Shown: positions 10,499 to 27,860 of the stretch, piece by piece
Position numbering within the stretch: position 1 is the first letter of the stretch
Layout of the letters: the number at the start of each line of letters is the position of its first letter
Source of the DNA: Pannonibacter sp. SL95
GTDB taxonomy: Bacteria > Pseudomonadota > Alphaproteobacteria > Rhizobiales > Stappiaceae
Reading direction: 5' to 3'
NCBI RefSeq assembly: GCF_026672425.1
Contig: NZ_JAPPRC010000003.1
Location: 1,098,501-1,162,500 of the forward strand
Length of the DNA stretch: 64,000 bases
Translations under genes and position numbers: made by a program
The notes under the pieces: generated by a model
What the model saw: only the letters and a program-made list of their open reading frames with translations
Told to the model about the DNA's origin: nothing
Databases searched by the model: none

Positions 10499-10905
10499 AG
10501 TCTGGCCTCCCGATGTCCATTTCCTGCACATGTGTTAATTTAATGAAGCTTCCTCGCTTGTCGACCGGAAAAGTTTCTGCACTGCACAACGGTTGTGGCC
10601 TTTCGCGTTCTGATTGGTGTTTGCTGGTGGTGCATTGCCTGCATTGCCGTTCGACCTGTGAGAAAATATCTAATTTGAACATAATCTTATCTGGATGGCG
10701 CGAAGTTGCGGCGCGAATATTGATAAGTGTGCTGACGAATGGCCCCTGTGAACAAAGTGCGGATATGTCGCATGCAATCTGTTCTGTGATGTACTGACTT
10801 TGTTAGGAGAAACTTCGAATGGCCAGGCAGGTGTTAAAGACGTCTTAACCAAATCGGCCCTAGGGTCAGATTGATAACAGGGAGACCCGGGATCCGGGAG
10901 GTGGA
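10499..10905. other. A+T-richer intergenic region upstream of the DUF2336 gene
   Basis: The 407 bp are clearly less G+C-rich than their surroundings and contain no supported gene of usual size. They carry the ribosome-binding site of the small membrane peptide on the minus strand, a CtrA-type box at 10834-10848, and a GGGAGG site before the DUF2336 start. A nine-codon frame at 10819-10848 with a good ribosome-binding site is present but is probably fortuitous. Confidence 0.5.
10834..10848 (+). promoter_or_regulatory. CtrA-type box upstream of DUF2336 gene
   Basis: TTAA-AGACGTC-TTAA is an exact TTAA-N7-TTAA match, the binding site of the cell-cycle regulator CtrA. It lies 57 bp before the DUF2336 start codon, a usual place for a box overlapping the -35 region. 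Confidence 0.6.
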
Positions 10906-21399: not shown

Positions 21400-25011
<3,612 letters not shown>

Positions 25012-25043: not shown

Positions 25044-26216
25044 TTACAGCGCGATCAGGTAGCCCGCCTGATCCATCTGCAAAGCGGCTGTCATCGCCGT
25101 GGTGCGGGTTGCGATCAGCGCACCCTTGCCGCGCGAGGGCGCGCCATCCTTGCCGGCGATGCGGCTTCGCAGGTTGGCTGCGATCACGTAGCCCTGGCCC
25201 AGCAGCGAGCGCGGAAGCTCCAGATGCGCTGCCGGAACCCTCAAGGCGCCGAATTTCTCCTTGTAGGCCTGATCGCCCGCCCCGAAATTCAGATAGGCGA
25301 AGCCTTTTTCCCGGGCCCAGTCCTGGATCTTCAGGATCAGAACCATGCCCGGCGAGAACCGCTTCCATTCCGGCCCTGAGATCCCGATCAGGCTGCCATT
25401 GACGTTGTTGCCACCACCGAGCAGAGCGGCGCCGCTGACAATGTCGCCCGCGTCATTGCTGATCACCACCACGTGCAAGCGGTTATGCGGGTCGTCCTGC
25501 AGGATGAGATGGCGATACAGCGTCTCGGCCTGTGCGGTGTTGGGGCTCGGCATGCCGCGCTGCTGGAAGCTCTCCTCGCGCAGGCGCAACAACTCGCCGA
25601 TGACACGCAGCCGGGAGGCGGTGTCGAGGACTTCGCGGAAGCGGTATCCCTTCTCGGTCAGCTTGCGATACTTGACGTCGCATTCCTTGTAGGCCGAGCG
25701 GCTCGGGCGCCGGTCCGGATCGGTACTGGCCAGCGGCATGGTGAGCTGGCATGTCTGGTCCGTCTTGCTTGCGGTCAGGGCGAACAGGGGGTTGTCCTCA
25801 CCGTTCGCAAACTGGGGAATGTTGCGCAGCCGGACAAGGTCACAGCCGCGGATACTGTTGATCAGGCAGAGCAAAGCCGCCTCCCGCCGTGCCGCGGTCT
25901 GCTGGCGAAAGTGGTCGGTGAGGATCGGGGCGCTGATGTCGCAATAGTCGCGCCCGGCAATCTCTGCCCGCCGCACGCCAAGGCGGCGGGAGTGGACGAT
26001 CGGAAGGGCGAGCAGTGGAGCGCCTCCACCAGCCGGCTCCACTGTGTGGATCGTCAGGCTGTCGCCGGTCTCCCGACAGCAGGCCGCGAAAAACGCAGAC
26101 AAGAACCAGCTCGACTGGAAGGGCGAAAAGCCGTCCGTGTGTCCGATGCGCTGAAACAGCTCCTGGATTTCATTAGTCGTTGAAATCGCAAGGCAGCGCG
26201 CCTCGAACTGGCTCAT
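25044..26216 (-). CDS. CelD/BioF2-like GNAT acetyltransferase-domain protein
   Basis: The 390-residue soluble protein has the layout of the CelD-like GNAT_6 family: an N-terminal half with SPFQSSWFLSAFFAACC and LLALPIVHSRRLGVRRAEI, and a C-terminal acyltransferase core with LLRLREESFQQRG, HVVVISNDAGDIVSGAALLG, MVLILKIQDWAREKGFAYLN and FGAGDQAYKEKFGA. Relatives are found in polysaccharide and cellulose synthesis loci. ATG 26216 is preferred (GGGGTG upstream) over the in-frame GTG at 26222. It has its own promoter with a CtrA box and no polysaccharide genes beside it, so its acceptor is unknown. Confidence 0.8.
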   Translation of the reverse strand: MSQFEARCLAISTTNEIQELFQRIGHTDGFSPFQSSWFLSAFFAACCRETGDSLTIHTVEPAGGGAPLLALPIVHSRRLGVRRAEIAGRDYCDISAPILTDHFRQQTAARREAALLCLINSIRGCDLVRLRNIPQFANGEDNPLFALTASKTDQTCQLTMPLASTDPDRRPSRSAYKECDVKYRKLTEKGYRFREVLDTASRLRVIGELLRLREESFQQRGMPSPNTAQAETLYRHLILQDDPHNRLHVVVISNDAGDIVSGAALLGGGNNVNGSLIGISGPEWKRFSPGMVLILKIQDWAREKGFAYLNFGAGDQAYKEKFGALRVPAAHLELPRSLLGQGYVIAANLRSRIAGKDGAPSRGKGALIATRTTAMTAALQMDQAGYLIAL

Positions 26217-26243
26217 GTTCACACCCCACTCGGAACATCAGGA

Positions 26244-26280
26244 TTAATAACAGGTTAATAATCCCATCTGTAACTGTCAA
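26244..26280 (-). promoter_or_regulatory. Promoter with CtrA-type box for the CelD-like gene
   Basis: On the minus strand a TTGACA -35 (26275-26280) and TAACCT -10 (26252-26257) are 17 bp apart. The box TTAA-N7-TTAA at 26244-26258 covers the -10 element, a position from which CtrA would repress rather than activate. Confidence 0.6.
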
Positions 26281-26350
26281 TCAGCGGTTGTTTTTCCTCA
26301 TTTTAACGTAAACGAACGTTTCGCTTCTTTTCTGATGGAATGCTTGCATT

Positions 26351-26368
26351 CTACAAATATCCTTGTAG
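26351..26368 (+). promoter_or_regulatory. Palindromic operator before arsR
   Basis: CTACAA and TTGTAG are separated by 6 bp, ending 9 bp before the arsR start codon. Its place fits autorepression of the ars operon. Confidence 0.6.
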
Positions 26369-26377
26369 GGTGACTGC

Positions 26378-26716
26378 ATGTTGTCCGCGCGCGCCATTGA
26401 TGCCTTTGCAGCTCTCGCCCATGCAGATCGGCTTGCCGCCTTTCGGCTGCTGATCGTTGCTGGTCCCGAGGGGCTGGCATCCGGCGAGATCGCCGAGCGG
26501 CTGGCTGTGCCTCCAACCCGGATGTCCTTTCATCTGGCGACGCTGGAGCGGGCAGGGCTGGTCATCGCGCGCCGGCAGGGGCGCAACATCCTCTATGCCG
26601 CCTCGGTTCCGCAGATTGCCGAACTTGTCGAGTTTCTCACCCGTGATTGCTGCGGCGGGCGGCCGGACCTGTGCCGGACGCAAGGCGCGGATATGAGCCA
26701 GGAGTGCAAATCGTGA
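26378..26716 (+). CDS. arsR: ArsR family arsenic-responsive repressor
   Basis: The 112-residue protein is a winged-helix ArsR repressor: LAHADRLAAFRLLIVAG, EGLASGEIAERLAVPPTRMS, FHLATLERAGLVIARRQGRN. It lacks the ELCVCDL arsenite site of plasmid-type ArsR. Instead cysteines lie at the C terminus (Cys91, Cys92, Cys99, Cys110), like the Acidithiobacillus type, in which a C-terminal Cys pair plus a third Cys binds As(III). It overlaps arsC by 4 bp and is preceded by a palindromic operator. The gene order arsR-arsC-arsH supports an arsenic role. Confidence 0.9.
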   Translation: MLSARAIDAFAALAHADRLAAFRLLIVAGPEGLASGEIAERLAVPPTRMSFHLATLERAGLVIARRQGRNILYAASVPQIAELVEFLTRDCCGGRPDLCRTQGADMSQECKS

Positions 26717-27129
26717 GCATTACAATCTATCACAACCCGTCCTGCGGCACGTCGCGCAACACGCTGGAAATGATCAGGGTTTCCGGCGAGGAGCCGGTCG
26801 TGATCGAATACCTCAAGACGCCACCCGCGCGTGAGGTTCTGGCTGATCTGATCGCCCGCGCCGGTCTCACCGTCCGCGCCGCCATTCGGGAAAAGGGCAC
26901 GCCCTACGCAGAGCTGGGTCTCGACAATCCTGCGCTGAGCGATGACGAGCTGCTGGATGCGATGATGGCGCATCCCATCCTGATCAACCGTCCCTTGGTG
27001 GTGACGCCAAAGGGCGTGCGCCTGTGCCGTCCGTCCGAAGTTGTGCTCGAGATCCTGCCCAATCCGGCCATCGGCACCTTCGTGAAAGAAGACGGCGAAG
27101 TCGTCGAGGCTCCGAAGGCCGGCGTATGA
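26713..27129 (+). CDS. arsC: Arsenate reductase (glutaredoxin-coupled)
   Basis: The 138-residue protein reduces arsenate to arsenite using glutathione and glutaredoxin. The catalytic Cys11 is in [19 protein letters not shown], and the downstream IEYLKTPP and [19 protein letters not shown] blocks with Arg residues are typical of the ArsC/Spx fold. The GTG at 26713 overlaps the arsR stop (GTGA) and has GGAG 8 bases upstream; a longer in-frame reading lacks family similarity. It overlaps arsH by 4 bp (ATGA), so all three genes are probably translated together. No arsenite pump is found next to it. Confidence 0.93.
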
Positions 27130-27860
27130 GCTCGTCTGACGGCGAAAACGAAGCGCGCTTGCCCGCGCTGGCGCAAGAGCATTTCCGTGAGATTGACCGG
27201 GACCGCCTGTTTCCGGCCACTCTGTCCACGCATCCTCCGCGCATTCTTCTGCTCTATGGCTCGCTGCGGGACCGCTCCTACAGCCGCCTGCTGACCCGGG
27301 AGGCTGCACGGCTGCTGGAGGCGCTGGGGGCCGAAACGCGGATCTTCGATCCGGCCGGCCTGCCCCTGCCGGATGCTGCGCCTGACGACCATCCCAAGGT
27401 GGCCGAACTGCGCCAGCTGTCCACCTGGTCCGAGGGGCAGGTCTGGTGTTCGCCGGAGCGTCACGGTGCCATGGCCGGCATCATGAAAGCCCAGATCGAC
27501 TGGCTGCCTCTGTCACTGGGCGCCATCCGTCCCACGCAGGGCAAGACGCTGGCCCTGATGCAGGTCAGCGGTGGCTCGCAATCCTTCAACGCGGTCAACC
27601 AGATGCGGATCCTCGGGCGCTGGATGCGGATGGTCACCATCCCGAACCAGTCCTCGGTGCCCAAGGCCTTCCTCGAGTTCGAGCCGGACGGGCGGATGAA
27701 GCCATCCTCCCTCTACGACCGGGTCGTCGACGTGATGGAAGAGCTGGTGAAATTCACCCTGCTTGTGCGCGACCGCAGTGACTACCTCACCGACCGGTAT
27801 TCCGAGCGCAAGGAAAGCGCGGCCGAACTCAGCCGCCGCGTCAACCAGAAGTCAATCTAG
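27126..27860 (+). CDS. arsH: ArsH NADPH-dependent FMN oxidoreductase
   Basis: The 244-residue protein has the ArsH signature [13 protein letters not shown] (44-56), [12 protein letters not shown], the [20 protein letters not shown] block and [20 protein letters not shown]. ArsH proteins are tetrameric flavoproteins; some oxidise trivalent methylarsenicals, others reduce quinones or dyes. It is the last gene of the overlapping arsR-arsC-arsH operon and is followed by a hairpin (27882-27903). An upstream in-frame extension is ignored because ATG 27126 overlaps the arsC stop and begins the family sequence. Confidence 0.93.

Follow-up and report, generated by a model that had tools for sequence, protein, structure and literature searches.

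A CtrA-type box over the predicted -10 element of a celD-like acyltransferase gene in Pannonibacter: a candidate CtrA-repressed promoter

Is the gene encoding a CelD-like acyltransferase in Pannonibacter sp. SL95 repressed by CtrA? The question is raised by a 64-kb window of the genome (64,000 nucleotides, G000:C3:1098501-1162500, within a 5.04 Mb genome of 6 contigs referred to below as G000), in which an exact TTAA-N7-TTAA sequence covers the predicted -10 element upstream of this gene. Studies in Caulobacter demonstrate that CtrA motifs located near the -35 element activate transcription while those lying over the -10 element repress it (PMC4287350); because the celD box lies over the -10 element, it should, by this rule of position, repress. 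Having considered the box itself, its conservation in a second species of the genus, the set of like boxes in the genome and the presence of CtrA, we regard repression of the celD-like gene through this box as a moderately probable reading of the sequence, and the competing readings as improbable to varying degrees.

The celD promoter and its conservation in a second species

The motif, the predicted promoter and the overlap between them can be read directly in the sequence (Table 1). As the first-pass annotation had reported, an exact TTAA-N7-TTAA box is present at 26244-26258, and a -10 hexamer, TAACCT (26257-26252), located 17 nt from TTGACA, lies wholly within it. The same annotation had described the promoter as strong and near-ideal, a description that suits the -35 element, which matches the consensus at 6/6 positions, but is overstated for the -10 element, which matches at only 3/6. 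Since a promoter scan requiring at least 4/6 matches per hexamer does not call TTGACA-17-TAACCT, and since the -10 element is the poorer of the two, the celD promoter is best considered plausible rather than near-ideal; the same scan does call the version found in the congener (G001), TTGACT-17-TAACAT. Transcription is predicted to start near 26245, such that the box would span approximately -13 to +2 and the leader would comprise ~29 nt. This leader is counted to the ATG at 26216, which is a likelier start codon than the upstream in-frame GTG and is aligned with the ATG of the congener.

Table 1. Features of the celD locus, with positions counted from the first base of the window
Feature	Position	Strand	Remarks
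CelD-like GNAT acyltransferase gene (PF13480)	25044..26216	minus	ATG 26216 preferred; in-frame GTG 26222
Near-palindrome GGATTAATAAC-AG-GTTAATAATCC	26241..26264	unstranded	contains the CtrA-type box
CtrA-type box TTAA-N7-TTAA	26244..26258	minus TTAACCTGTTATTAA, plus TTAATAACAGGTTAA	exact; counterpart at G001:C1:366369-366383
Predicted -10 hexamer TAACCT	26252..26257	minus	inside the box; TAACAT in G001
Predicted -35 hexamer TTGACA	26275..26280	minus	TTGACT in G001
A-rich conserved stretch GAAAAACAACCGCTnA	26281..26298	minus	directly upstream of -35
arsR-family gene	26378..26716	plus	divergent from celD
arsC	about 26713-27129	plus	after arsR
arsH	27126-27860	plus	after arsC

The spacer separating celD from the divergent arsR-family gene (26223-26377) is 155 bp in length with a GC content of 40%, and it is against this composition that the box has to be judged. 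Specifically, the window contains 2 exact boxes where 100 whole-window shuffles yield an expectation of 0.00, but a shuffle of this kind is too lenient a control for an AT-rich spacer, and local dinucleotide shuffles were used as well. When the 155-bp spacer was shuffled 20,000 times with its dinucleotides preserved, an exact box arose in 195 shuffles (1%), and a box preceded at 16 to 18 nt by TTGAC arose in 2. The second exact box of the window, TTAAAGACGTCTTAA at 10834-10848, is located ~57 bp before a gene encoding a DUF2336 protein, and the G001 orthologue of that gene also has an exact box.

Phylogenetic conservation, which comes from one other species, appears to provide the best evidence that the site is functional. 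A clear celD orthologue was found in only two of 87 family genomes, G000 and G001 (800 and 792 bits, the next match scoring 175), and the two proteins are only 46% identical. When the two loci are compared, positions 26242-26265 and 26275-26298 are identical at 22/24 and 21/24 positions, respectively, while outside these blocks identity falls to 8/25 in the leader, 2/9 in the rest of the spacer between the two hexamers and 20/42 further upstream. The promoter is also better conserved than the coding DNA, which is identical at 677 of 1173 positions. Thus the -35 element, the spacing, the -10 element and both TTAA halves are kept in G001 while flanking DNA has diverged, and this includes the downstream TTAA half, which is not needed by the promoter and is nonetheless intact.

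Searches across the family show how restricted these elements are. The extended repeat TTAATAA-N4-TTAATAAT occurs exactly in only 2/87 genomes, G000 and G001, once in each, and it is only these two exact copies that count, since sites with 1 mismatch are as numerous in the reversed control (41) as in the genomes themselves (41 places in 37/87 genomes). A look-alike, TTAATAA-N4-TTAATAA, present in 10 genomes of genus g4, was set aside: at the two places viewed (G017:C8:1134577, L116; G007:C1:1187774, L117) it lies, by our reading, just past a glutaredoxin-like gene and ahead of a terminator-like stem. Among 16 distant CelD homologues examined, an exact box was found upstream of only one (L070), with no TTGAC 14-21 nt before it even when 1 mismatch was allowed. 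The A-rich stretch GAAAAACAACCGCTnA is conserved about as well as the box itself; together with the -35 element it was found among the 87 family genomes only at the two celD promoters, plus one match with 1 mismatch in genome G019, and it is perhaps an UP-like element or the site of a second factor.

CtrA and the genome-wide set of boxes

The G000 genome holds 30 exact TTAA-N7-TTAA places. That the spacing of seven is over-represented is seen by comparison with other spacings: 30 of the 91 TTAA-N3..12-TTAA places have it, an excess with binomial probabilities of 2e-9 against an expected share of one tenth and 6e-7 against the share in a reversed control (21/163). Among the first 50 of the 91 places listed, counted by eye, 17 have a spacing of 7 and 12 a spacing of 6, with each other spacing represented at most 6 times. 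Exact boxes likewise exceed the control in G001 (29 vs 10) and in a third species, G003 (30 vs 14). According to a custom gene-calling script, 29 of the 30 G000 boxes are wholly intergenic while the other (L018) shares 4 bases with the end of a gene. Moreover, when compared by hand with the 28 G001 loci carrying the 29 boxes of that genome, 23/30 G000 boxes lie beside a gene with a G001 orthologue that likewise has an exact box beside it, the seven without such a counterpart being L014, L015, L016, L051, L055, L058 and L059.

The neighbors of these boxes include genes of the type associated with CtrA. A Pfam run covering 30 of the 60 proteins encoded beside the boxes identified a flagellin, two flagellar rod proteins, two MCPs and a HAMP protein; hemE, Wzz, WecG, a polysaccharide export protein (Poly_export) and a family-2 glycosyltransferase; a penicillin-binding protein and sigma-70; and, among others, a peroxiredoxin, ribosomal S21, a class II ribonucleotide reductase and a patatin. 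An ABC protein beside one box is, by our own reading, presumably FtsE, and 6/30 of the proteins run had no Pfam match. CtrA itself is encoded at G000:C3:393324-394013 by an orthologue with 83% identity to the Caulobacter sequence used as query, and the best PDB match of this protein is CtrA (4qpj, 5.6e-69). Its gene is divergent from an apparent fliI and, by eye, has TTAAC half-sites upstream. A paralogue at G000:C6:985003-985668 (L064) is 40% identical to the query and has one TGA within the matched stretch. Taken together, the 30 boxes, the excess of the N7 spacing, the CtrA orthologue, the CtrA-type neighbors and the sharing of 23/30 boxes with G001 make TTAA-N7-TTAA look like a functional motif in this genome, as judged from sequence.

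How typical the celD box is of this set is a separate matter. A C following the second TTAA, as in the consensus TTAA-N7-TTAAC derived from ChIP-seq in Hyphomonas (PMC7200025), is carried in one orientation by 25/30 G000 boxes; the celD box has a T there in both orientations, and the C is a preference, not a strict requirement. In a matrix from which the orthologous pair was excluded, the celD box and its G001 counterpart rank 37/59 and 39/59, respectively, below the median, and random flanks placed around two TTAA halves reach the celD score in 662/5000 trials at 60% GC and in 1235/5000 at 40% GC. Because random flanks so often score equally, spacer and flanks lend little support to the identification of this box as a CtrA site. 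With respect to the promoter it overlies, the celD box stands apart: an exact TTGAC located 15-21 nt before the box is found only at celD among the 30 G000 boxes and only at the celD orthologue among the 29 G001 boxes, at a distance of 17 in both, though finding one TTGAC so placed in a set of 30 boxes is unremarkable alone (~0.4 expected).

Proposed repression by CtrA and competing readings of the site

From these features we infer a simple course of regulation. The celD gene would be transcribed from the housekeeping-type promoter TTGACA-17-TAACCT, starting near 26245; a phosphorylated CtrA dimer would bind the box covering the -10 element and the start; and CtrA so bound would keep RNA polymerase off the promoter. 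Synthesis of the acyltransferase would then fall in periods of low active CtrA, out of phase with the flagellar and chemotaxis genes next to which boxes of this type occur in G000. Such repression had been proposed in the first-pass annotation, and the CtrA orthologue, the box set, conservation in the congener and the Caulobacter rule of position all agree with it. The annotation had further characterized it as the reverse of the usual activation, which is an accurate description but not a new finding, such repression being established in Caulobacter. There, the repressor class consists mostly of half-sites (n = 24) while full boxes are mostly located near -35 and activating, such that a full box over the -10 element, as at ctrA P3, is the rarer case (PMC4287350).

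The most substantial alternative concerns the symmetry of the site. The block conserved in G001 (26242-26265) nearly equals the near-palindrome GGATTAATAAC-AG-GTTAATAATCC, the arms of which are complementary at 10/11 positions and the center of which is 1.5 bp off that of the box. Since the block is a 10/11 inverted repeat, it could be the operator of a different dimeric repressor, with the match to CtrA arising as a by-product of TTA-rich arms; the second half of the box, which lacks TTAAC, and a spacer and flanks that do not mark it out as a member of the CtrA set would fit this reading. However, when up to 3 mismatches are allowed, GATTANTAA-N4-TTANTAATC occurs in G000 only here and in G001 only at the orthologue and at two places with 3 mismatches, and the two celD loci have no regulator gene in common, arsR not having been found at the G001 locus. 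We hold a separate repressor to be unlikely.

A second alternative is that the AT-rich spacer is silenced by MucR, an H-NS-like zinc-finger protein, with or without the participation of CtrA. MucR binds AT-rich DNA (PMC11662661), a CtrA motif is present in 76% of the Caulobacter cell-cycle promoters located under MucR peaks (PMC4287350), and the G000 genome encodes one ROS_MUCR protein. What silencing of this kind leaves unexplained is the TTAATAA repeat, exact and with an 11-bp period, which has persisted in both species as the rest of the AT-rich spacer diverged. As the explanation of the site it is quite improbable, though MucR could act jointly with CtrA on the celD spacer.

Slightly less probable still is activation by CtrA, directed either at celD from a more downstream start or at the divergent arsR operon. 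Activation from -35 is the most common role of full CtrA boxes (PMC4287350), and a weak plus-strand TGTAAC (4/6) is located at about activator distance. In the direction of celD, however, there is no -10 element at activator distance (the best matching at 2/6), and the start would fall at the start codon; in the direction of arsR, the TGTAAC is not conserved in G001, and no arsR was found at the locus there. Least probable of all, and very improbable, is that the box is a chance product of AT-rich promoter DNA read by no regulator: -10 regions are AT-rich and local shuffles do produce an exact box on occasion (195/20,000), but the downstream half is intact in G001 where the leader is identical at only 8/25 positions.

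The CelD-like gene, its neighborhood and precedents in Caulobacter

Repression by CtrA, the reading preferred here, would bring under cell-cycle control a gene with a label that is itself approximate. The CelD-like protein matches PF13480 (Acetyltransf_6) at 6e-15, with 56.1 bits against a gathering score of 22; no NCBIfam match was found, and a PDB search with the CelD alignment returned no meaningful match. The name CelD was supplied by the first-pass annotation and is not drawn from a database match; CelD-like is a fair name, and PF13480 is only a family-level label. An acyltransferase related to polysaccharide synthesis, as the gene had been described, is accordingly a family-level inference, polysaccharide being the presumed substrate, whereas its direct neighbors encode a hydantoinase/oxoprolinase, the ars operon and a GGDEF-EAL protein, with no polysaccharide or cellulose genes directly beside it.

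In two species celD, together with its promoter, is flanked by hyu and arsC; in a third the hyu-arsC junction lacks it. At the G001 celD locus, arsC and the GGDEF-EAL gene follow, and arsR and arsH were not found there. In G003 the hyu-arsC junction (L112 5884-6018) is 134 bp with no celD between, and a junction without the celD cassette represents gain or loss of gene and promoter within the genus. In two further genomes, G002 and G004, the 6.7-6.9 kb inspected beyond hyu showed neither arsC nor celD. In the stretches compared, the G000 hydantoinase/oxoprolinase (window 21400-25011; L112, L113) shares 99% protein identity with its counterparts in G001 and in G003, and the adjoining celD, arsC and GGDEF-EAL proteins are only 47-84% identical; this disparity suggests recent exchange or unusual constraint. 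On the other side of the spacer, an imperfect inverted repeat at 26340-26379 (17-nt arms, 71% complementary) extends as far as the start codon of arsR and is possibly the ArsR operator.

Several repressed promoters of Caulobacter resemble the celD promoter in part. At ctrA P3 a full TTAA-N7-TTAA lies over the -10 element with its 5' base at -14, as compared to approximately -13 for the celD box; at ctrA P1 and mipZ P2 the CtrA motif likewise lies over the -10 element but consists of a half-site (PMC4287350), while hemE Ps has one box over -10, like celD, plus a second box at -35 (PMC11264516). Unlike these, the celD promoter has a start that is predicted only, and its target is a CelD-like acyltransferase. 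With respect to the protein, a likeness is found in HfsK, a holdfast N-acetyltransferase of Caulobacter that is also of the GNAT type and is thought to modify a surface polysaccharide; its transcript is cell-cycle-specific, appearing in late predivisional cells, though the HfsK protein level barely changes (PMC5362036). The phase of hfsK is probably opposite to that predicted for the celD-like gene.

CtrA repression from a -10 site is already known, and the celD-like gene as its proposed target would be a further case; in a limited search of the open-licence literature, none of the papers listed dealt with control of a CelD-like gene by CtrA. Beyond repression itself, a broader proposal can be put forward tentatively, and with distinctly less confidence: that a lineage-specific and rapidly diverging surface acyltransferase is controlled by a full box placed to repress, with polysaccharide modification thereby set opposite to motility in the CtrA cycle. 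If true, the locus would provide a clean full-box CtrA-repressor promoter outside of Caulobacter and would place a surface acyltransferase within the CtrA cycle, in a phase opposite to that of motility. In addition, the conserved box set (23/30) can serve directly as a list of CtrA target candidates for the genus.
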